Origin: Persephonella marina EX-H1
GTDB taxonomy: Bacteria; Aquificota; Aquificia; Aquificales; Hydrogenothermaceae
Assembly: GCF_000021565.1 (NCBI RefSeq)
Contig: NC_012440.1
Location: forward strand, 438,672 to 502,671
DNA length: 64,000 bases
Reading direction: 5' to 3'
Position 1 is the stretch's first letter, and every line of letters starts with the position of its first letter. Shown here piece after piece: positions 26,391-61,074 of the stretch. The notes under the pieces were generated by a model. The model was given only the letters and a program-made list of their open reading frames with translations. It had not been told where the DNA came from and made no database searches. The position numbers and the translations under genes are program-made.

Positions 26391-27761
26391 TTAAAGACCG
26401 TACTTCTGAATCTTCTTTCTGAGTGTAGCTCTGTTTATGCCGAGAAGCTGAGATGCTTTTACCTGATTGTGTTTTGTGTACTCAAGGGCTGTCTGTACTA
26501 TTATTTTATCAATCTTTTCTTTAATCTCTTCTATACTTCCCTCTTCAAGTGATGCCAGAACTCTGTTCTTTAGAATCTCCTCAAAGTTGTCCTCAATCTG
26601 AGGTTTTACCCTCTTTTCCCTTAAAAATGTAAGATCGTTTACTGTAAGTATGTTGTCCCTGCAGAGGATCATTGATCTCACAACTGTGTTTTCAAGCTCC
26701 CTTATATTTCCTTCCCATCTCTGATCTTTAAGAACCTCCATATATTCCTTTGAAGCTCCGGCAATACTTTTACTTAGTTTCTGGTTGTACTTGTTCACTA
26801 TACATTCAACGATGTAAGGTATATCTTCCTTCCTTTCCCTTAAAGGTGGAAGATGGAGATGTATCAGGTTCAGCCTGTAGTATAGATCCTCCCTGAACTT
26901 CCCCTTTGCTACCATATCTTCTAGATCCCTGTTTGTTGCTGCCATAACCCTCACATCAACTTTTATCTCTTTATTTCCACCTACCCTGTAGAATGTTCCT
27001 TCCTGTAAAACTCTGAGAAGTTTAGACTGGGCGGACAATGGCAGCTCTCCTATCTCATCAAGGAATATTGTTCCTCCATCTGCAAGCTCAAACTTACCTT
27101 CCTTTGTTTTTTCGGCACCTGTGAATGCCCCTTTTTCATAGCCGAAAAGCTCAGACTCTAAAAGGTTTTCAGGAATCGCAGCACAGTTTATAGCTATAAA
27201 AGGTTTATTACTTCTCTTACTGAGCTTCCATATTCCCCTTGCAAGTAGTTCCTTCCCTGTTCCTGTTTCTCCGGTTATCAAAACAGGAAGGTCTGTAGGA
27301 GCAACCTCACCTGCTAATTTACATATTTCTCTGAGCTGAGGTGATGAACCTATTATTGAACATAGATACTGGCATAAAACACCGTCCTGTGCAGATCTGT
27401 TTCTGAAATAAATGAGCTTTTTCTCATTTTCTTCTTTCTGGTTTATCTTCTCAAGGATTGAGTTTAACTGTTTTTCTGAAAAAGGGAACTCTATATAATC
27501 AAAGTAGTTTTTACTCATTATTCTCATAATAAATGCGGCAAGATTTGTTTTGGATATACTTTTGTCTAAAATCGCTATAGGAAAGAGACCTTTCTTTACA
27601 TCAACAGGAACAATACCAAAATCTGATATATTGACAAAAACAACGCCTGATATCTTGCTTATCTTTTTAGGATCTTCCAGATAGACTATACCGTTCAGAT
27701 ACCTGCTAAAAATATCCCTGACCTTTTTATCTTTTGCCAGTATATAAACCTTTTTCGTCAA
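26391..27761 (-). CDS. Sigma-54-dependent enhancer-binding transcription activator
   Basis: A 456-aa NtrC/FleQ-type activator. The N-terminal (1-115) looks like a receiver domain but lacks a clear phospho-acceptor Asp, as in FleQ. The AAA+ core has Walker A GETGTGKE (164-171), the sigma-54 contact GAFTGA (211-216) and Walker B TIFLDE (231-236). The Fis-type HTH is at the C terminus ([20 protein letters not shown]). The start is TTG after GAGGTAG. Four sigma-54-type promoters in this window are natural targets. A terminator separates it from the thioredoxin-like gene upstream. Confidence 0.93.
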
Positions 27762-27801: not shown

Positions 27802-27830
27802 AAAAAGGGAAGATTTTCCACCTTCCCTTT
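27802..27830 (-). terminator. Terminator between the thioredoxin-like gene and the activator
   Basis: A 9-bp stem AAAGGGAAG/CTTCCCTTT with a 9-base loop is followed on the minus strand by TTTCC. It begins inside the stop codon of the thioredoxin-like gene, so the activator gene probably has its own promoter. Confidence 0.6.
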
Positions 27831-28281
27831 AGAAAAGATAGTTATCTTCCACTTTTACTTTGTATGCCCCTATCTTTTCAGCTTTTATCAGATACTCATC
27901 AGGATCAATTCCCTTTTTATGGAGATTTCTTGAGAAGTAGTTTATCAGATTTGCACATCTGCAGGGTTGTGAAAGATCAGTCACCGCGTAAAGAAGGCTT
28001 CCAGATTCAGGATTTATAAAGTAAACACCCTCTTTCTTCTCAATACCGTACCTGTTTACAAAATTATCAACCTGCGGGTCTTTAAGTGATATCTCTCTAA
28101 AATCAAAGCTTTTCTTAATTCTTTTTGAGAGATACTTGTCCTTCAGTATCTTGTTATGAATCTTTTGATATGCAGGGCTTCCATCACTATAGATGAATAC
28201 CACAAGGAGCTTATCCTTAGCAAAGGATGGAATGATAAGCAGTAAAGCCGCAGTCAAAATTAATGTTAATTTTTTCATCAT
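27829..28281 (-). CDS. Periplasmic thioredoxin-fold-like protein under sigma-54 control
   Basis: A 150-aa protein with a signal peptide (MKKLTLILTAALLLIIPSFA). The mature part has LLVVFIYSDGSPAYQKIH, where a CxxC motif would sit in thioredoxin, and VYFINPESGSLLY, like the cis-Pro side. A CRC pair is near 114 (LSQPCRCANL). It resembles thioredoxin-like proteins with a lost redox site, but the family is not certain. Two adjacent ATGs are possible; the second is better spaced from GGAGG. A sigma-54 promoter lies 35-50 bases upstream. Confidence 0.55.
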   Translation of the reverse strand: MMKKLTLILTAALLLIIPSFAKDKLLVVFIYSDGSPAYQKIHNKILKDKYLSKRIKKSFDFREISLKDPQVDNFVNRYGIEKKEGVYFINPESGSLLYAVTDLSQPCRCANLINYFSRNLHKKGIDPDEYLIKAEKIGAYKVKVEDNYLF

Positions 28282-28315
28282 AATACCTCCTGAAATTGAT
28301 TTTCAGGAAGTATTA

Positions 28316-28331
28316 AGCAAGGAGTGTGCCA
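28316..28331 (-). promoter_or_regulatory. Sigma-54 promoter of the thioredoxin-like gene
   Basis: On the minus strand TGGCACACTCCTTGCT matches the consensus TGGCAC-N5-TTGC(A/T) exactly, with correct GG-N10-GC spacing. The expected start is about 25 bases before the ATG. Confidence 0.8.
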
Positions 28332-28362
28332 TTATTGTAAGTTATTGATTTTAATAAAATAA

Positions 28363-28374
28363 ACCAGTACCGGT
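28363..28374. promoter_or_regulatory. Activator-site candidate 1 (ACCAGTACCGGT)
   Basis: This near-palindrome differs at one position from the ACCAGTACTGGT core of the second site 45 bases away. Its centre is about 60 bases upstream of the predicted start, a normal place for a sigma-54 activator site. Confidence 0.45.
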
Positions 28375-28404
28375 CTGTTTTTGTATCAATTTTCTGTATA
28401 TTTT

Positions 28405-28422
28405 TTAACCAGTACTGGTTAA
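28405..28422. promoter_or_regulatory. Activator-site candidate 2 (18-bp perfect palindrome)
   Basis: TTAACCAGTACTGGTTAA is a perfect 18-bp palindrome, centred about 110 bases upstream of the sigma-54 start and about 45 bases from site 1. It fits a dimeric Fis-HTH activator such as the one encoded at 26.4-27.8 kb. It also lies just downstream of the HAMP gene's stop codon. Confidence 0.55.
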
Positions 28423-28432
28423 TTTTTAGCCA

Positions 28433-28870
28433 CTACAGCTGTTCACTCTCTAACTTGTCTATTATAACTTTAAGGCTGACTCTCATCCTTTCAAAAGATT
28501 CCTGAAGGTTTCCTATCTCATCTTCCCTGTCAATCTTCATCTCTTCATCAAGCTCACCTACAGATATCTTTTCCATCCTGTCAGCGATATCGTTCAGCGG
28601 ATTGATTATCTCTGTTTTAACCAGAAAATAAGTCATAACTATAGGGATCAATGTTGCCTGAAATGTTATAAAACCAAGTAACATTGCAAAGTTAAGAGGG
28701 TGAGCTTTTGCGTATGCTATAAGCTGTTCAACAAGCTGGTAGGTCTGCTCGTTTGAAAAGATTATGAGGTAAACGATAACTGAGGCTATGGAAAAAACTA
28801 CAGCACCTGAAAGGGTAATAAAGAGGATTTTGTGAATTACAGACTTTTTTAGAAAGTTTTGCAGACTCAT
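28433..28870 (-). CDS. Membrane HAMP-domain protein without an output domain
   Basis: A 145-aa protein with two transmembrane helices (about 15-38 and 58-83) around a short periplasmic loop. A HAMP domain follows (IINPLNDIADRMEKISVGEL, then EIGNLQESFERMRVSLKVI). There is no kinase, GGDEF or methyl-accepting domain, so it resembles a truncated sensor or a helper protein. It lies 17 bases after the haem-motif gene, in the same direction as the sulfite reductase. Confidence 0.75.
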   Translation of the reverse strand: MSLQNFLKKSVIHKILFITLSGAVVFSIASVIVYLIIFSNEQTYQLVEQLIAYAKAHPLNFAMLLGFITFQATLIPIVMTYFLVKTEIINPLNDIADRMEKISVGELDEEMKIDREDEIGNLQESFERMRVSLKVIIDKLESEQL

Positions 28871-28887
28871 ATCTACCCCCTACTCTT

Positions 28888-29250
28888 TTATTCGTCTAAT
28901 AATATAACTTCTCGGCATGCTTTATCCTTTCCGAAAAATAGATTTATCTTTTCCTTCTTTCCTTCAGAGTTTTCATAGATGATCTCAAAGTATCCTCTCT
29001 TTATATCAATGTTAAGTATTTTTTTAACATCAAATTTAACGTCAAGTATGCTTTTTGCTTCGTAGGGGGTGATTGAGTGGCAGGCTGCACAGTCACCTAT
29101 ACAGCCCTCTACAACTACATCTGAGCTTCCGCTTCCCTCAACATTTAAAGGAACTGTTATATCTTCCTTCTGGTGTTGAAAAGGGAAGGAAAAGGCAACA
29201 GAAAATATAAGAAGAGAGCCTATTATAGCTTTTTTACTTTTTATATTCAT
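28888..29250 (-). CDS. Small periplasmic protein with a CxxCH haem-type motif
   Basis: A 120-aa protein with a signal peptide (KKAIIGSLLIFSVAFSF) and one CAACH motif in VEGCIGDCAACHSITPYEAK (about 54-58), suggesting covalent haem c. The rest (LNIDIKRGYFEIIYENSEGK) resembles the N-terminal dimerisation part of DsbC-like proteins that carry a CHxLT segment in some anaerobes. It could be a mono-haem cytochrome or redox sensor. It sits 65 bases after the sulfite reductase gene. Confidence 0.55.
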   Translation of the reverse strand: MNIKSKKAIIGSLLIFSVAFSFPFQHQKEDITVPLNVEGSGSSDVVVEGCIGDCAACHSITPYEAKSILDVKFDVKKILNIDIKRGYFEIIYENSEGKKEKINLFFGKDKACREVILLDE

Positions 29251-29315
29251 ACTACACCGTAATTTTTCCCAGGTAATAATAATCTATAATATACAAAAAT
29301 TACTGATTTGTATAG

Positions 29316-31604
29316 TTATCTTTTTCTTACCACCACGGTGTAGTAGCCGTTCTCCTCCTGAATATCAATTATCTCATGACCGTCATCCCTTATACTCTGT
29401 GGAACGCTTCTTATAGACTCTTCACCATCTATTGTAAGAACAAGTATTGATCCTGTATCCATCTCTTTCAACTTCATTTTTGCCTTTACGTAGTTAAACG
29501 GACACTCAACACCTCTAAGATCAAGAAACTCCTTCCTTGCTGTTTCCTCTTTCTTCTCTTCCTTTTTCTTCTCTGTGTCCCTTCTCAGTTTAAGGTATGT
29601 TCTCTTTGCGTCCTGATAGAACTTTTTAGATTCTTCCAGAAGCTTATCAATATCTTTTATCTCCCCTGTTAAAAGGGATATGTATCTCTCATCTATAAGT
29701 TTTCTTCCTATAATATGTTCTATGAATCTGTCTATAGCATCTTTCCCTTCAGCTTTTACTCCAAAAGGAATTAAAAGTCCTGATGCTATAATCTGTACAG
29801 CCTTTTCAATATGTGGATAAGCATCATCTTTAAATCCTTTACTAATATGGCTTTCAGCCTGCTTTATAAGTCTCTCACCTTCTTTTAAAGCTGTCTCAAC
29901 CTTATCAGCTATTATACCTGCACACTCCCCAGTACCGAGATCTTCAAGAGAGAACTCCTTATCAGAACCCCAGTCCTTGTTGTACTCTATACCTTCCTTC
30001 AGTTCCTGATATACAGAAAGCTCTTCCTTTATCCTGTCTATCCCGTACTCTTCAACAAACCTTTCAAAAGGTCTTCCCTCACCATAGTTCAGGTAAAGAT
30101 CTATAAGATGTTTTACAACATCAGGAACATTTTTAGCCGGGATCTTAAGGACAGTATGTCCTATTTTTGCCCCATCTATATCACCTGAACCTCCAAGATG
30201 AAGTACGTAAGCTGGTATAAGTGTTTCTCCTATTTTCATAGCTATACCGTGGAAACCTATTGATGCAACATGATGATGGGCACAGGAGTTAGGACATCCG
30301 CTCACCTTTATCGTTATATCTTTTATCTTTTCAAATGTCTCCCTGTCCTTTGGAAGTATGTCGTAAATAGCCCTTGAAAGTTCCCTCGCAGCTGTTATAC
30401 CGAGACTGCATGTCTCTGAGCCTGGGCATGATGTTATATCCAGGTATGATGATGCTCCTACAGCATCGAGAGCTGAGAGTTTAAGCTGTGTATACACACT
30501 CTCAAGATCTTCCTCAGGTATATTTAGTAGAGCTACATTTTGATCGTGTGTTGCTTTTACCGTTAGAGAATACTCTTCAGCTATATCGGCAAGAGATCTC
30601 AGTTTTCCTGTTGTTATATTTCCAAGACTTAATTTTACCAGAGCTGTGTATAACCCTTCCTGTCTCTGTGGTAGGATGTTGCTCTCAAGCCAGAAATTAA
30701 ACTGCGGCTCTTCAGAGTATGGAAGTTTTCTTTCAACAGTTTTTGTCCCGTTTATTGTAATATCACAGCTGAAACTTTCCTCTACGGATCTTGCCCTCTC
30801 TATACTATCCTGTAAAAGCTCTAAGAATCTTTCAAAACCAAGTTTTTCTATAAGAAATTTAAGTCTGTTATGTCTCTTGTTTTTTCTGTCCCCATACCTG
30901 TCAAATAGATCCATAACGGCGGAGATTATGATAGTCAGGTCTTCTATAGGGAGGAAATCTGTGTACTTATGGGCGTATTTTGGTCTGTCTCCAAGACCAC
31001 CGCCTATATAAACCTCAAAACCTGCTTTTCCGTCCTTTACAACGGGTATAAACCCGAGATCATTAAACGGTATAAGGAATGAATGTTTTCTACAGCAGGC
31101 AAATGCTATCTTAAACTTCCTGGGAAGATCCTCATACCTTCCTATCAGGAGTTCTGTGATTTTCAGGGCTATTCTTTCAACTTCAAAGGGCTCGTAAGGA
31201 CATACACCTGAAAGGTAGCTTGCTGTTATATTTCTGAGTGTGTTTCCACAGGCATCCTTTGTTGTGAGACCTGCCTCATTTATCCTCTGTATGATAACAG
31301 GAACGTCATCAAGCTTTATCCAGTGGTACTGTATATCCTGTCTTGTTGTTACATGTGCAACGCCGTTTGAAAATTGATCACCTATATCTGCTATCTCTCT
31401 AATCTGATCAGGTGTTAGAACACCTGCAGGTATCTTTATTCTTACCATATGAAATTCCTGCTGTCTCTGTCCATATATACCGTTGTTAAGCCTGAAAGCC
31501 TTAAAATCACTCTCAAAAGCCTCGCCTTTTTTATACTGATCGTACAGCTGATTAAATCTTTCTATATCCTTAAGGTAATCTCTGTAAATCCCGTTTTTGA
31601 TCAT
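29316..31604 (-). CDS. Siroheme sulfite/nitrite reductase with C-terminal TusA domain
   Basis: A 762-aa fusion. Residues 1-520 are the duplicated nitrite/sulfite reductase fold, with 4Fe-4S/siroheme Cys at C393, C399, C437 and C441 (CPGSETC and CPNSC). A helical linker (about 550-680) follows, then a TusA-like sulfur-carrier domain (from about 690) with CPFN, Cys about 701. Sulfite reduction with sulfide handed to a TusA Cys is plausible; the TusA part favours sulfite over nitrite. Electron donor would be ferredoxin, as no flavin subunit is present. GGAGGAG precedes the ATG, and a sigma-54 promoter lies upstream. Confidence 0.88.
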   Translation of the reverse strand: MIKNGIYRDYLKDIERFNQLYDQYKKGEAFESDFKAFRLNNGIYGQRQQEFHMVRIKIPAGVLTPDQIREIADIGDQFSNGVAHVTTRQDIQYHWIKLDDVPVIIQRINEAGLTTKDACGNTLRNITASYLSGVCPYEPFEVERIALKITELLIGRYEDLPRKFKIAFACCRKHSFLIPFNDLGFIPVVKDGKAGFEVYIGGGLGDRPKYAHKYTDFLPIEDLTIIISAVMDLFDRYGDRKNKRHNRLKFLIEKLGFERFLELLQDSIERARSVEESFSCDITINGTKTVERKLPYSEEPQFNFWLESNILPQRQEGLYTALVKLSLGNITTGKLRSLADIAEEYSLTVKATHDQNVALLNIPEEDLESVYTQLKLSALDAVGASSYLDITSCPGSETCSLGITAARELSRAIYDILPKDRETFEKIKDITIKVSGCPNSCAHHHVASIGFHGIAMKIGETLIPAYVLHLGGSGDIDGAKIGHTVLKIPAKNVPDVVKHLIDLYLNYGEGRPFERFVEEYGIDRIKEELSVYQELKEGIEYNKDWGSDKEFSLEDLGTGECAGIIADKVETALKEGERLIKQAESHISKGFKDDAYPHIEKAVQIIASGLLIPFGVKAEGKDAIDRFIEHIIGRKLIDERYISLLTGEIKDIDKLLEESKKFYQDAKRTYLKLRRDTEKKKEEKKEETARKEFLDLRGVECPFNYVKAKMKLKEMDTGSILVLTIDGEESIRSVPQSIRDDGHEIIDIQEENGYYTVVVRKR

Positions 31605-31639
31605 ACTTTCTCCTCCTTACATTTACTCAGTAATGATAA

Positions 31640-31655
31640 AGCAATGAATGTGCCA
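31640..31655 (-). promoter_or_regulatory. Sigma-54 promoter of the sulfite reductase gene
   Basis: On the minus strand TGGCACATTCATTGCT fits the -24/-12 consensus exactly. The predicted start is about 24 bases before the ATG, the same distance as at the thioredoxin-like gene. Confidence 0.82.
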
Positions 31656-31726
31656 ATAGGGTAAGTTCCTGTAATTAAAGGCTTTTAATATTTTCAGCTT
31701 TGTTGTGATGTTCAAAATTTCGCCAG

Positions 31727-31736
31727 ATTGATCAAT
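31727..31736. promoter_or_regulatory. Palindrome midway between divergent sigma-54 promoters
   Basis: ATTGATCAAT lies about 70 bases from both divergent sigma-54 elements, where one activator could serve both. It is short and AT-rich, so chance is a fair alternative. It differs from the ACCAGTACTGGT core. Confidence 0.3.
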
Positions 31737-31798
31737 TTTTTTCCATAAAAAGAGACGGTTATATACAAAAATCTTTTATTTTCAAAGACTTATCATTA

Positions 31799-31814
31799 TG
31801 GCATGCCGTTTGCA
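31799..31814 (+). promoter_or_regulatory. Sigma-54 promoter of the TrpD2-like/cysH/tauE operon
   Basis: TGGCATGCCGTTTGCA matches TGGCA(C/T)-N5-TTGCA with GG-N10-GC spacing. The expected start is about 20 bases before the ATG; AAAGGAGG lies between. Confidence 0.75.
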
Positions 31815-31843: not shown

Positions 31844-32851
31844 ATGAACGGAAGATTTTTTAGAACATTTTTTGGAAGTTATAAGGAAGAAAGTTTAACG
31901 GGAAGTACAAAGGATATACTGCATAAAATACTTGAAGGTAAGCTTTCTGATGTAAAGACAGCTTCTTTCCTTGTTTTTTTGAAGTATAACGGATCTCCTT
32001 ACATTTTTGGTAAGGCTGTTGATGTTTTAAGGGAAAAGATTGAGAAGATAGACCTGTTTCTTCCAGACAGTATAGAGATTGGTTATCCTTATAAACTGAA
32101 AAAAAATTCACCATACTTCCTTATCCCTGCTTCTGTTGTTCTCTCCCTTCTTCCAAAAAGTGAGATAAAGGCTGTTTTCCATGGTGATAATCTTGGGAAA
32201 GGTTCAACAAAGGATATCTTTGATCATCTTGGTATAACAGTTCTCACAAATGAGGACAGTGAGAGCATGCTTAAAAATCTGAATATAGGCTTTTTCAACA
32301 GATCGCTTTTTCTGCCTTCACTTTCTGATCTGAATGGTCTGAGGGAAGAGCTGAATATAGATGATCTTTTTAACTATACGGAAAAGTTTGTAAATCCTGT
32401 AGGTTCTATGTATCACATAACAGGAGCTAAAGAGTCAGAGATAGATTTTTATATAGATCTGTTGAAAGAAAGATACAGAAGATTTGGCGTGGTTACAGGT
32501 GTAGATGGATACCCGGATATTACAGGGAGATCAAAGCTGTATATCTATTCTGATGGAAAACTTGAAAGATATGATCTGGATATAGATAACTTTGAACTTA
32601 AAGGGAGATTCAGTCCGAGGGATCACTCCGAGTTCATAACAGAGCTTCTCTCAAAGAGATTAAAGGATTATGAAAGGTATCTTTTTATAAATGGGGCTGT
32701 TTTACTACTGGTTAGAGGAACTGTCAGATCTATAGAAGAAGGCTATAAGATAACGGAGGATCTTTTCCACAGATACGATTACAGCCAGATATTGAGAAAC
32801 ATACAGAGATACTCAGACTATCTAAACTACAAAAATATTTATGAGTTATAA
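31844..32851 (+). CDS. TrpD2/YbiB-like phosphoribosyltransferase-fold protein
   Basis: A 335-aa protein resembling the anthranilate phosphoribosyltransferase fold: an N-terminal helical bundle with ILEGKLSDVKTASFLVFLKY (TrpD-like), then HGDNLGKGSTKDIFDHLGI (near 113), like the GN-S-(A/S) PRPP loop of TrpD. Key TrpD substrate residues are not obvious, so it belongs with YbiB/TrpD2-type proteins, some of which bind nucleic acid. It is the first gene of the cysH-tauE operon, twelve bases before cysH, so a link to sulfur assimilation is inferred. Confidence 0.7.
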   Translation: MNGRFFRTFFGSYKEESLTGSTKDILHKILEGKLSDVKTASFLVFLKYNGSPYIFGKAVDVLREKIEKIDLFLPDSIEIGYPYKLKKNSPYFLIPASVVLSLLPKSEIKAVFHGDNLGKGSTKDIFDHLGITVLTNEDSESMLKNLNIGFFNRSLFLPSLSDLNGLREELNIDDLFNYTEKFVNPVGSMYHITGAKESEIDFYIDLLKERYRRFGVVTGVDGYPDITGRSKLYIYSDGKLERYDLDIDNFELKGRFSPRDHSEFITELLSKRLKDYERYLFINGAVLLLVRGTVRSIEEGYKITEDLFHRYDYSQILRNIQRYSDYLNYKNIYEL

Positions 32852-32863
32852 AGGAGGTGTTGT

Positions 32864-33571
32864 ATGTTTACAAAAGAGTTTGTTAAAGAGAGAAGTGATC
32901 ATTTTGAGAACCTGCCAGCCCAGGATCTTTTGAAGTGGGTTTACCAGAACTTTAAAAATGTTGGTTTCACATCATCTTTCAGTGCGGATGATGTCTCTAT
33001 TATCCATATGATAAAGGAGATAAAACCGGATGCTCTGATCATATTCATTGATACGGATTATCACTTTCCTGAGACGTATGAGCTTGTTAAGAAGATAAAA
33101 GAAGAATGGGATATAAATCTGAAGATAATAAAACCTCTTATAACTGTTGAGGAACAGGATAGACTCTATGGGGAAAAACTTTACGAGAAAGATCCTGACA
33201 AATGCTGTCAGATAAGGAAGGTTGAACCTCTAAAAAGGGTTCTTGAGGAGCTTGATGTATGGATAACAGGTATGAGAAGGGATCAGTCCCCTACAAGGGC
33301 AAATATTGGAAAGGTTGAGACACACAGGCTCCCTTCAGGAAAGACAATACTGAAGGTAAATCCTATAGCAGACTGGACAAGGAAGGATGTATGGAAGTAC
33401 GTTCATGAAAACAACCTCCCTTATAATCCCCTTTACGATCAGAACTACCTCAGTATAGGATGTGCACCATGTACGAGACCTGTCCTTGAAGGTGAGGATG
33501 AGAGAGCTGGAAGATGGGCAGGTAAAGGAAAGCTTGAGTGTGGATTACATACATTCACAGAGAAGGAATAG
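32864..33571 (+). CDS. cysH: APS reductase (CysH, iron-sulfur form)
   Basis: A 235-aa adenylyl-sulfate reductase giving sulfite, AMP and oxidised thiol donor. PP-loop-type SSFSADDVSIIHMI opens it; CCQIRKVEPL (C114/C115) and IGCAPCTRPV (C200/C203) ligate a 4Fe-4S cluster; the catalytic Cys is in ECGLH (C226). The CC...CxxC pattern marks the APS- rather than PAPS-using form. GGAGG precedes the ATG. The adjacent sulfite reductase completes sulfate-to-sulfide assimilation. Confidence 0.93.
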   Translation: MFTKEFVKERSDHFENLPAQDLLKWVYQNFKNVGFTSSFSADDVSIIHMIKEIKPDALIIFIDTDYHFPETYELVKKIKEEWDINLKIIKPLITVEEQDRLYGEKLYEKDPDKCCQIRKVEPLKRVLEELDVWITGMRRDQSPTRANIGKVETHRLPSGKTILKVNPIADWTRKDVWKYVHENNLPYNPLYDQNYLSIGCAPCTRPVLEGEDERAGRWAGKGKLECGLHTFTEKE

Positions 33572-34336
33572 ATGGAGTTAGTAATAGCCGGTGTTATTCT
33601 TGGCTTGATCATAGGGCTTACAGGGATCGGAGGTGGGATGCTGACAACTCCTGTCCTTACGATTTTTATGGGGGTTCCTATCAGCACAGCTGTGGGAACC
33701 AGCCTTCTTTTTTCTGCTATAACAAAGATATTTGCCTCAGGTATATACATAAAAAGAGGTCTTGTTTGCAGAAAGCTCACACTTCTACTTGCCTCTGGAA
33801 GTATCCCTGGAGCTTTTCTTGGAAGTTATGCTTTCCACTGCTTTTTTGACAGATATCCTGCTATTGCTGGAAAGGTTATCCCTGCCTTCATAATCTTTAT
33901 GATACTTGTATCATGCACATTCTCTTACTACAGGATGTTCTCAAAATCTGAGAAGATAGCTAACTTTGATATAAGAAACAGACCTTTCCTTATTCCTGTT
34001 ATAGGACTGGTTGTTGGTTTTGATATAGGTTTTACATCTGTTGGAGCAGGTGTTATAGTCGCCTCAATACTCCTTGCCCTCTGTCCTATGAATCCATCAA
34101 GGATAATAGGGACGGATATTGTCCACGGTTTTATTCTCAGTGTTTTTGCAGGTGGACTCCATTACTCATTTGGAGGGGTTGATACTGATGTTCTGTTCAA
34201 ACTCCTTCAGGGTGGTATATTCGGTGTTATATTAGGCTCTCTTGTATCCCCTTATTTACCTCAAAAACCTTTCAGGTTTGCTCTGAACTCAGCTGTTCTC
34301 GTTTTTGCCATCATGTTTATAAAGAAGGTGTTCTGA
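33572..34336 (+). CDS. TauE/SafE-family sulfite or sulfur-anion exporter
   Basis: A 254-aa membrane protein with about eight helices and two repeats of the family motif, seen as GLTGIGGGMLTTPVL (near 15) and DIGFTSVGAGVIVASILL. TauE/SafE proteins move sulfite, sulfoacetate or related organic anions. It starts right after the cysH stop, so a sulfite-detoxifying or sulfate/sulfite transport role fits. Its 3' end overlaps the convergent rsmA by 48 bases. Confidence 0.85.
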   Translation: MELVIAGVILGLIIGLTGIGGGMLTTPVLTIFMGVPISTAVGTSLLFSAITKIFASGIYIKRGLVCRKLTLLLASGSIPGAFLGSYAFHCFFDRYPAIAGKVIPAFIIFMILVSCTFSYYRMFSKSEKIANFDIRNRPFLIPVIGLVVGFDIGFTSVGAGVIVASILLALCPMNPSRIIGTDIVHGFILSVFAGGLHYSFGGVDTDVLFKLLQGGIFGVILGSLVSPYLPQKPFRFALNSAVLVFAIMFIKKVF

Positions 34337-59839: not shown

Positions 59840-59855
59840 TGGCATATTTATTGCT
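59840..59855 (+). promoter_or_regulatory. Sigma-54 promoter of the major porin
   Basis: TGGCATATTTATTGCT fits TGGCA(C/T)-N5-TTGC(A/T) with correct spacing. The predicted start is about 160 bases before the porin ATG, so the mRNA would have a long leader. Local AT-richness makes this slightly less certain than the other sites. Confidence 0.65.
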
Positions 59856-60027: not shown

Positions 60028-61074
60028 ATGAAAAAAGTGATGGGTTTAGCAGCAGCAGGATTATTGGCTGCAGGGGTAGCTAATGCAGGATCTTTAACAG
60101 TAGCAAACAGTGATATTACACTTTACGGTGGTGTATCAGCTGGATACCAGTATTTAACTACAGAACATTCTGCAGGAAGCCTAACTAACAATGATTACTT
60201 CAGCGTAAATAACGTAATCATTGGTCTTAAAAAAGACGCAGATGCAAACAGCCCAATCGGATTTAATGCAGCTTTTGGTAACTTCACAGTTCCTACAGTT
60301 ATCGCATCTTCAGCGACAGTAAACAGCAATAATCTCATTGCTTACGGTAAAACTTCTTCATTTATGCCTTGGCTTGCTTATGTAACAATTGCTCCTGTTC
60401 AGGGATTATCTGTTGATGCTGGTCTTCTCTGGAACAAATTTGGAGAGGCTCCAATCACAATACTCAACTCAAATATCAACAGAGGTATACTCTTCACAGG
60501 ACACCCAGTTCTCTTCGCAGGTGCAAGAGTTAACTATGATGCAGGAGTTGCAAAAGTTTATGTTGGATACAACCAGGGTGGTGGATTACTTCAGGCAGGA
60601 GTTTCTGATGCTATAGAAGCTGGTGCTATGGCAGATCTCGGAGCTGCTAAAGTTGGACTCCACGTTTATGACGAAGCAAGCGGAAGAAATATTTATGTTC
60701 TCTGCGTAAAATCAGATTTAGGAGTTGCAAAAGTAGGACTTGAGATAGACTATACAACATTAGATACAGCTCCAGCAGGTGCTGATGATTCAGCTTATGG
60801 TGTTGCACTTAACTTAGATCCAGCAGTATCTAACACAGTATCTGTTCCAATAAGAATTGAGTACATTGATAACAAAAACTCTGGAATTTACTTAACAGGA
60901 AAAGACAATGCAATGTCTCTCACAGTTACACCAACATACAAGCCAACTGGAAACACATTTGTAAGAGCAGAAATCGCTTACACTTCAACAGATGCGAAAG
61001 TATTTGTTGATGACTCAGGATCTGCAAAAGACAACAGAACTTACCTCGGATTTGAGGCTGGATTCTTATTCTAA
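60028..61074 (+). CDS. Major outer-membrane porin-like protein
   Basis: A 348-aa protein with a signal peptide (MKKVMGLAAAGLLAAGVANA) and a 16-strand-like barrel pattern ending in GFEAGFLF with terminal Phe. It resembles Aquificota/epsilonproteobacterial major porins. Codon use differs from its neighbours (more CTC, AAC, TAC), a mark of high expression. AAGGAGG precedes the ATG, a strong terminator follows, and a sigma-54 promoter lies upstream. Pore specificity is unknown. Confidence 0.85.
   Translation: MKKVMGLAAAGLLAAGVANAGSLTVANSDITLYGGVSAGYQYLTTEHSAGSLTNNDYFSVNNVIIGLKKDADANSPIGFNAAFGNFTVPTVIASSATVNSNNLIAYGKTSSFMPWLAYVTIAPVQGLSVDAGLLWNKFGEAPITILNSNINRGILFTGHPVLFAGARVNYDAGVAKVYVGYNQGGGLLQAGVSDAIEAGAMADLGAAKVGLHVYDEASGRNIYVLCVKSDLGVAKVGLEIDYTTLDTAPAGADDSAYGVALNLDPAVSNTVSVPIRIEYIDNKNSGIYLTGKDNAMSLTVTPTYKPTGNTFVRAEIAYTSTDAKVFVDDSGSAKDNRTYLGFEAGFLF

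Follow-up and report, generated by a model that had tools for sequence, protein, structure and literature searches.

The genes for assimilatory sulfate reduction in Persephonella marina EX-H1 most likely form a sigma-54 regulon with an activator of its own, which acts at the promoters of the sulfite reductase gene (sir), of the trpD2-cysH-tauE operon and of a thioredoxin-like gene (trx). We put the probability of this reading at about 0.87. The three promoters are assigned to one regulon because of a cognate activator and a common tandem binding site. Sigma-54 control of APS reductase and sulfite reductase had been proposed in the initial annotation of the window, by which we mean the whole stretch of 64,000 nucleotides analysed here, and it is supported by the conservation of the promoter elements, the cognate activator and the common tandem site. 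The mechanism is ordinary sigma-54 activation; the news lies in the target pathway, in the activator subfamily and in the binding site. All features are located in Table 1.

Table 1 Features of the sulfur cluster of P. marina, in positions of the window
Feature	Position	Strand	Basis
Sigma-54 activator (EBP): degenerate receiver, C130-x3-C134, AAA+ with GAFTGA, Fis-type HTH	26391..27761	-	Pfam Sigma54_activat 3e-76
Exported thioredoxin-like protein (trx)	27829..28281	-	ORF, signal-peptide-like start
Hairpin pairing the trx Shine-Dalgarno	28281..28315	-	-18.5 kcal/mol, z -5.9; covariation in 9 sequences
-24/-12 element TGGCACACTCCTTGCT, trx-like gene	28316..28331	-	exact match; predicted +1 near 28305
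Tandem palindromic candidate enhancer sites before trx	28395-28411, 28416-28432	.	matrix rank 3 and 1 in 64-kb window; alignment-conserved
HAMP-domain membrane protein	28433..28870	-	Pfam HAMP 2e-11
Exported 120-aa protein, CxxCxxC/CxxCH motifs	28888..29250	-	ORF; no family match
Siroheme-type sulfite reductase with C-terminal TusA sulfur carrier fusion (sir)	29316..31604	-	NIR_SIR 2e-53, TusA 6e-17
-24/-12 element TGGCACATTCATTGCT, sir operon	31640..31655	-	exact match
Tandem palindromic candidate enhancer sites, divergent region	31709-31725, 31729-31745	.	matrix rank 2 and 4; 53 bp from each divergent -24
-24/-12 element TGGCATGCCGTTTGCA, trpD2-cysH-tauE operon	31799..31814	+	exact match
TrpD2-like protein	31844..32851	+	Glycos_transf_3 1.4e-8; below TrpD cut-off
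CysH, probably APS reductase	32864..33571	+	PAPS_reduct 2.5e-54; KCCQIRK and GCAPC motifs
TauE/SafE-family permease	33572..34336	+	TauE 3.8e-38

Results

Promoter elements in the window and the genome

The window contains four exact matches to TGGCAY-N5-TTGCW compared with 0.07 expected from dinucleotide shuffling, and none of 100 such shuffles of the window had four or more. If one mismatch is tolerated, the excess is less striking (6 matches versus 2.8 expected). The elements of trx, sir and trpD2 are exact and lie where they had been claimed, and all three have the GG and GC dinucleotides in the correct spacing. Their distances to the start codons are similar, as had been described: 34, 35 and 29 nt, respectively. 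The fourth exact element of the window, 59840-59855(+), lies about 170 bases upstream of a porin-like gene starting near 60028.

In the whole genome the pattern occurs exactly 14 times and the reversed pattern twice. The other exact sites are mostly intergenic and upstream of plausible sigma-54 targets, with a CO dehydrogenase-type gene, a pilin, a rhodanese and a nitrite reductase-like gene behind them; two exact sites of the genome scan lie deep within coding sequence. The rhodanese is exported, and the element before its gene, at genome position 610241 (L045), is possibly a second link to sulfur. One rpoN (PF04552, 3e-58) and nine clear enhancer-binding proteins (EBPs) are encoded in the genome.

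Genes of the sulfur cluster

CysH carries the CC and CxxC iron-sulfur cysteines of an assimilatory APS reductase. It scores above the cut-off of NF002537 and, with 234.7 against 235.3, falls 0.6 bits short of that of TIGR02055 (APS_reductase). The sulfite reductase has the siroheme/4Fe-4S motif Cx5C...Cx3C and an operon context with sat and cysH, both in keeping with an assimilatory enzyme; because no NCBIfam equivalog reached its cut-off for this protein, the assignment of the substrate rests on the context. The thioredoxin-like ortholog gave a weak, below-cut-off match to Thioredoxin_2 (E 0.0016).

The operon of Aquificaceae reads sir-cysH-tauE-(cobA)-sat, and its first two genes are frequently fused. 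In most genomes of the Hydrogenothermaceae genus g7 the ATP sulfurylase gene is the first gene after the sir promoter. As the clusters of relatives add ATP sulfurylase and cobA (siroheme), the whole assimilation route is covered. The ATP sulfurylase gene of P. marina lies elsewhere, and scans for -24/-12 elements and for the palindromes described below found neither there, which places the first step of the pathway outside the regulon in this organism.

Fusions of sulfite reductase with a sulfur carrier were seen in both families, with TusA in Hydrogenothermaceae (in the window at 29316-31604) and in g21, and in other Aquificaceae with a ThiS-like, LAGG-containing domain between sulfite reductase and CysH (L082, 5906-8548; L099, 9122-11038). 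In G033 a MoeB/ThiF-like gene follows directly after sat (L083, 12029-12844). Together these observations suggest that the sulfide is carrier-bound.

Conservation in Aquificota

Conservation in relatives had been named as one of two points on which the proposal would stand or fall, and the -24/-12 elements are kept in 28 of 28 assessable Aquificota genomes from two families, Hydrogenothermaceae and Aquificaceae, with GG and GC intact at every sir and cysH promoter of the relatives. Both divergent elements are exact in 12 of 12 assessable Hydrogenothermaceae and lie 138-145 bp apart where this was measured. In Aquificaceae an element with intact GG and GC is found upstream of sir in all 17 assessable loci (12 exact, 5 with one mismatch outside GG/GC). 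Since loci from the same genus share their history, all these counts overstate the number of independent events. G018, G048 and G053 were not assessable, as the relevant contig ends too early. Orthologs of sir occur in 16 and CysH in 35 of the 136 Aquificota genomes. The four genomes of family f5 have a lone CysH without activator, element or binding site. In G107 (L078) an intact cysH and promoter pair stand beside broken frames of sir, sat, trpD2 and the activator; the breaks may reflect draft quality or decay.

The proposed set of three elements persists in relatives for sir and trpD2-cysH-tauE, but not in full for trx. There, the -24 sequence TGGCAC is conserved in 10 loci and the paired palindromes are kept, but the -12 GC reads GA or GT in eight of nine relatives, which makes the trx-like gene the least secure member of the regulon.

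The cluster activator

The predicted activator with GAFTGA exists, but its gene lies just outside the region 28316-31814 to which the initial annotation had referred. Its AAA+ domain has Walker A, Walker B and GAFTGA and is 52-53% identical to that of Aquifex aeolicus NtrC1 (TM to target 0.92), and a Fis-type HTH forms the C-terminus (HTH_8, 2.9e-11). The N-terminal domain is predicted to be an alternating alpha-beta domain; it matches Response_reg only at E 0.0085-0.014, below the cut-off, and the best full-length counterparts are receiver-AAA+ activators. In Hydrogenothermaceae the phospho-acceptor position holds N or D and the K before the conserved P is missing, and in Aquificaceae these features are partly kept. 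A C-x3-C motif stands directly N-terminal to AAA+ in 26 of 26 cluster activators and in none of the six comparable other EBPs of the genome. C130, L133, C134 and G138 are invariant in the alignment. In a tree with the six other EBPs, the 26 cluster activators form one clade (support 93/93).

Nearly every assessable Aquificota locus has the gene of an orthologous sigma-54 activator within the cluster or next to it; in G005 this gene immediately follows sir, and in Aquificaceae it is the divergent neighbour of the operon. The activator N-domain and CysH are both present in 28 genomes and both absent from 99, while 2 have the activator only and 7 CysH only; the corresponding Fisher p of 3e-20 is too small owing to the relatedness among the genomes. 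G031 contains two copies of each. A partial match to the N-domain in a genome without CysH (G035:C18:906-1049) is possibly a remnant.

Tandem palindromes

Alignment of the intergenic regions revealed conserved tandem 17-bp palindromes, TGGTTA-N5-TAACCA, 20-23 bp apart from centre to centre, between the divergent promoters and again upstream of trx. Aquificaceae have pairs of TGTTTA-N5-TAWACA at the same position. The half-site, TGGTTA or TGTTTA, thus varies between the families in step with the activator clade. A matrix derived solely from relatives gave exactly the four palindromes as the four best matches of the window. As tandems they scored 35.5 and 28.0, whereas unrelated sequence stayed at about 12 and the genome's other sigma-54 loci did not exceed 10.7. 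When the genome was scanned for the palindrome allowing 3 mismatches at most, 26 hits were obtained versus 17 in the control, barely more, so that specificity comes only from the pairing and the relatives-trained matrix.

The pair of the divergent region is centred: in ten genomes either -24 is 50-53 bp away. Its second site is weak in G020, G107 and G099. Across lineages the centre of the nearer palindrome lies 51, 59-64, 72-74 or 83 bp from the -24. These steps of about 11 bp correspond to one helical turn and match the prediction of helical phasing, with a p of about 1e-3 that is indicative only, the lineage set having been hand-chosen and ambiguous registers left out.

Two nitrite reductase-like paralogs, at P. 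marina position 850651 (L046) and at L086 4577, also have exact sigma-54 elements. The paired palindromes are absent from both, and a different activator is therefore likely for them. Among the scanned NirA-like paralogs of relatives some have sigma-54-like sites but no paired palindromes.

Discussion

We propose that E-sigma54 would bind the -24/-12 elements of sir and trpD2-cysH-tauE and, more weakly, that of trx. The cluster activator would use its Fis-type HTH to bind the pair of 17-bp palindromes some 60 bp upstream, and its AAA+ GAFTGA ring would then open the promoters. A single, central binding site would serve sir and trpD2-cysH-tauE in the divergent region. The activator probably raises its own synthesis, as its gene is located downstream of regulon promoters. 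Our best guess for the signal is a shortage of reduced sulfur, at which the genes would be switched on, sensed around C130-x3-C134 rather than via phosphorylation. We tentatively hypothesize, with the odds somewhat against us, that the cluster activators constitute a new subfamily of EBPs in which reduced sulfur (as sulfide, persulfide or thiol redox) is sensed directly by the invariant C130-x3-C134 at the hinge leading to the AAA+ ring, the ancestral phospho-receiver having been replaced and sigma-54 thereby coupled to sulfur status.

Other explanations differ in what they make of the same elements. That these are chance matches or sites of another DNA-binding protein, and that the genes use the housekeeping sigma factor, is hardly credible given their exact conservation in two families, the fixed geometry with paired palindromes and the adjacent activator. 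The promoters might also depend on sigma-54 and be driven by another EBP of the genome, for example a nitrogen regulator, with the cluster EBP serving other genes. The presence of nine clear EBPs and the exact -24/-12 element of a nitrite reductase paralog would fit such an arrangement, but the cluster activator tends to be present where CysH is and, in two families, is linked to cysH and sir, and the palindrome pair is absent from nitrite reductase and the other sigma-54 loci; we therefore consider it very improbable.

The purpose of the regulon could instead be dissimilatory sulfur metabolism or a response to sulfite or thiol stress, sir detoxifying sulfite and TauE exporting it. TauE/SafE proteins do include sulfite exporters, and among the products of the Hydrogenothermaceae cluster are a thioredoxin-like protein that is exported and one with CxxC motifs. 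However, these thiol proteins are absent from G005 and from the clusters of Aquificaceae, whereas ATP sulfurylase and CysH are encoded in the same operons, in several together with cobA (siroheme), which makes a stress or dissimilatory role improbable.

The activator has its closest known relatives in the NtrC family (A. aeolicus NtrC1, PDB 1ny5 and 1ny6; FleQ), with which it shares the receiver-like N-domain, the AAA+ domain with GAFTGA and the Fis-type HTH. Unlike these, it has no dependable phospho-acceptor in the N-domain (N or D in Hydrogenothermaceae, where the receiver lysine is lost as well), and it has the invariant C-x3-C before AAA+ and sulfate assimilation as target. The cysteine pair is a concrete and testable candidate for a sulfur sensor. 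SfnR of Pseudomonas and Acinetobacter is a sigma-54 activator of organosulfur use that controls the use of sulfones and sulfonates. It resembles the proposed system in connecting sigma-54 with sulfur nutrition, but the target of the cluster activator is the inorganic route of Sat, APS reductase and sulfite reductase. This same pathway is under dedicated activators elsewhere too, the LysR-type proteins CysB, CysL and Cbl, which work with sigma-70, whereas Aquificota would use sigma-54 and an AAA+ activator.

The textbook roles of sigma-54 are in nitrogen metabolism, motility and carbon uses. In two families of the heat-loving, deep-branching phylum Aquificota, our findings would bring the whole route of inorganic sulfur assimilation (ATP sulfurylase, APS reductase, sulfite reductase and siroheme methylase) under sigma-54 and an activator of its own, a use of sigma-54 hardly described before. 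With the palindromic site the regulon can be traced in any Aquificota genome. The initial annotation had called such control notable. This holds, but COG0155 (sulfite reductase) had already been reported as sigma-54-enriched in Aquificia in a 2025 PSSM survey (PMC12316311). In the passages covered, the survey gives no activator or binding site and its text names neither COG0175 (cysH) nor COG2046 (sat) (PMC12316311). Beyond this remark on COG0155, a search of freely accessible literature did not find sigma-54 control of cysH or of sulfate assimilation. Sigma-54 elements also occur at nitrite reductases, which belong to this superfamily too, and the COG0155 entry may therefore mix sulfite and nitrite reductases and be partly about nitrogen; we suggest splitting it accordingly.

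A further layer of control is conceivable at trx, where the predicted +1 lies within the 5' arm of the hairpin (Table 1) and an RNA that begins at this +1 has a folding energy of just -1.2 kcal/mol. In the simplest reading, read-through RNA from sir would stay untranslated at trx and RNA from the trx promoter would be translated. Hairpins of the phage T4 lysozyme and IS10 type hide the ribosome site in read-through RNA in this way, and transcripts from the gene's own promoter begin within the 5' arm. The trx hairpin resembles them and differs in its association with a sulfur regulon and a sigma-54 promoter.
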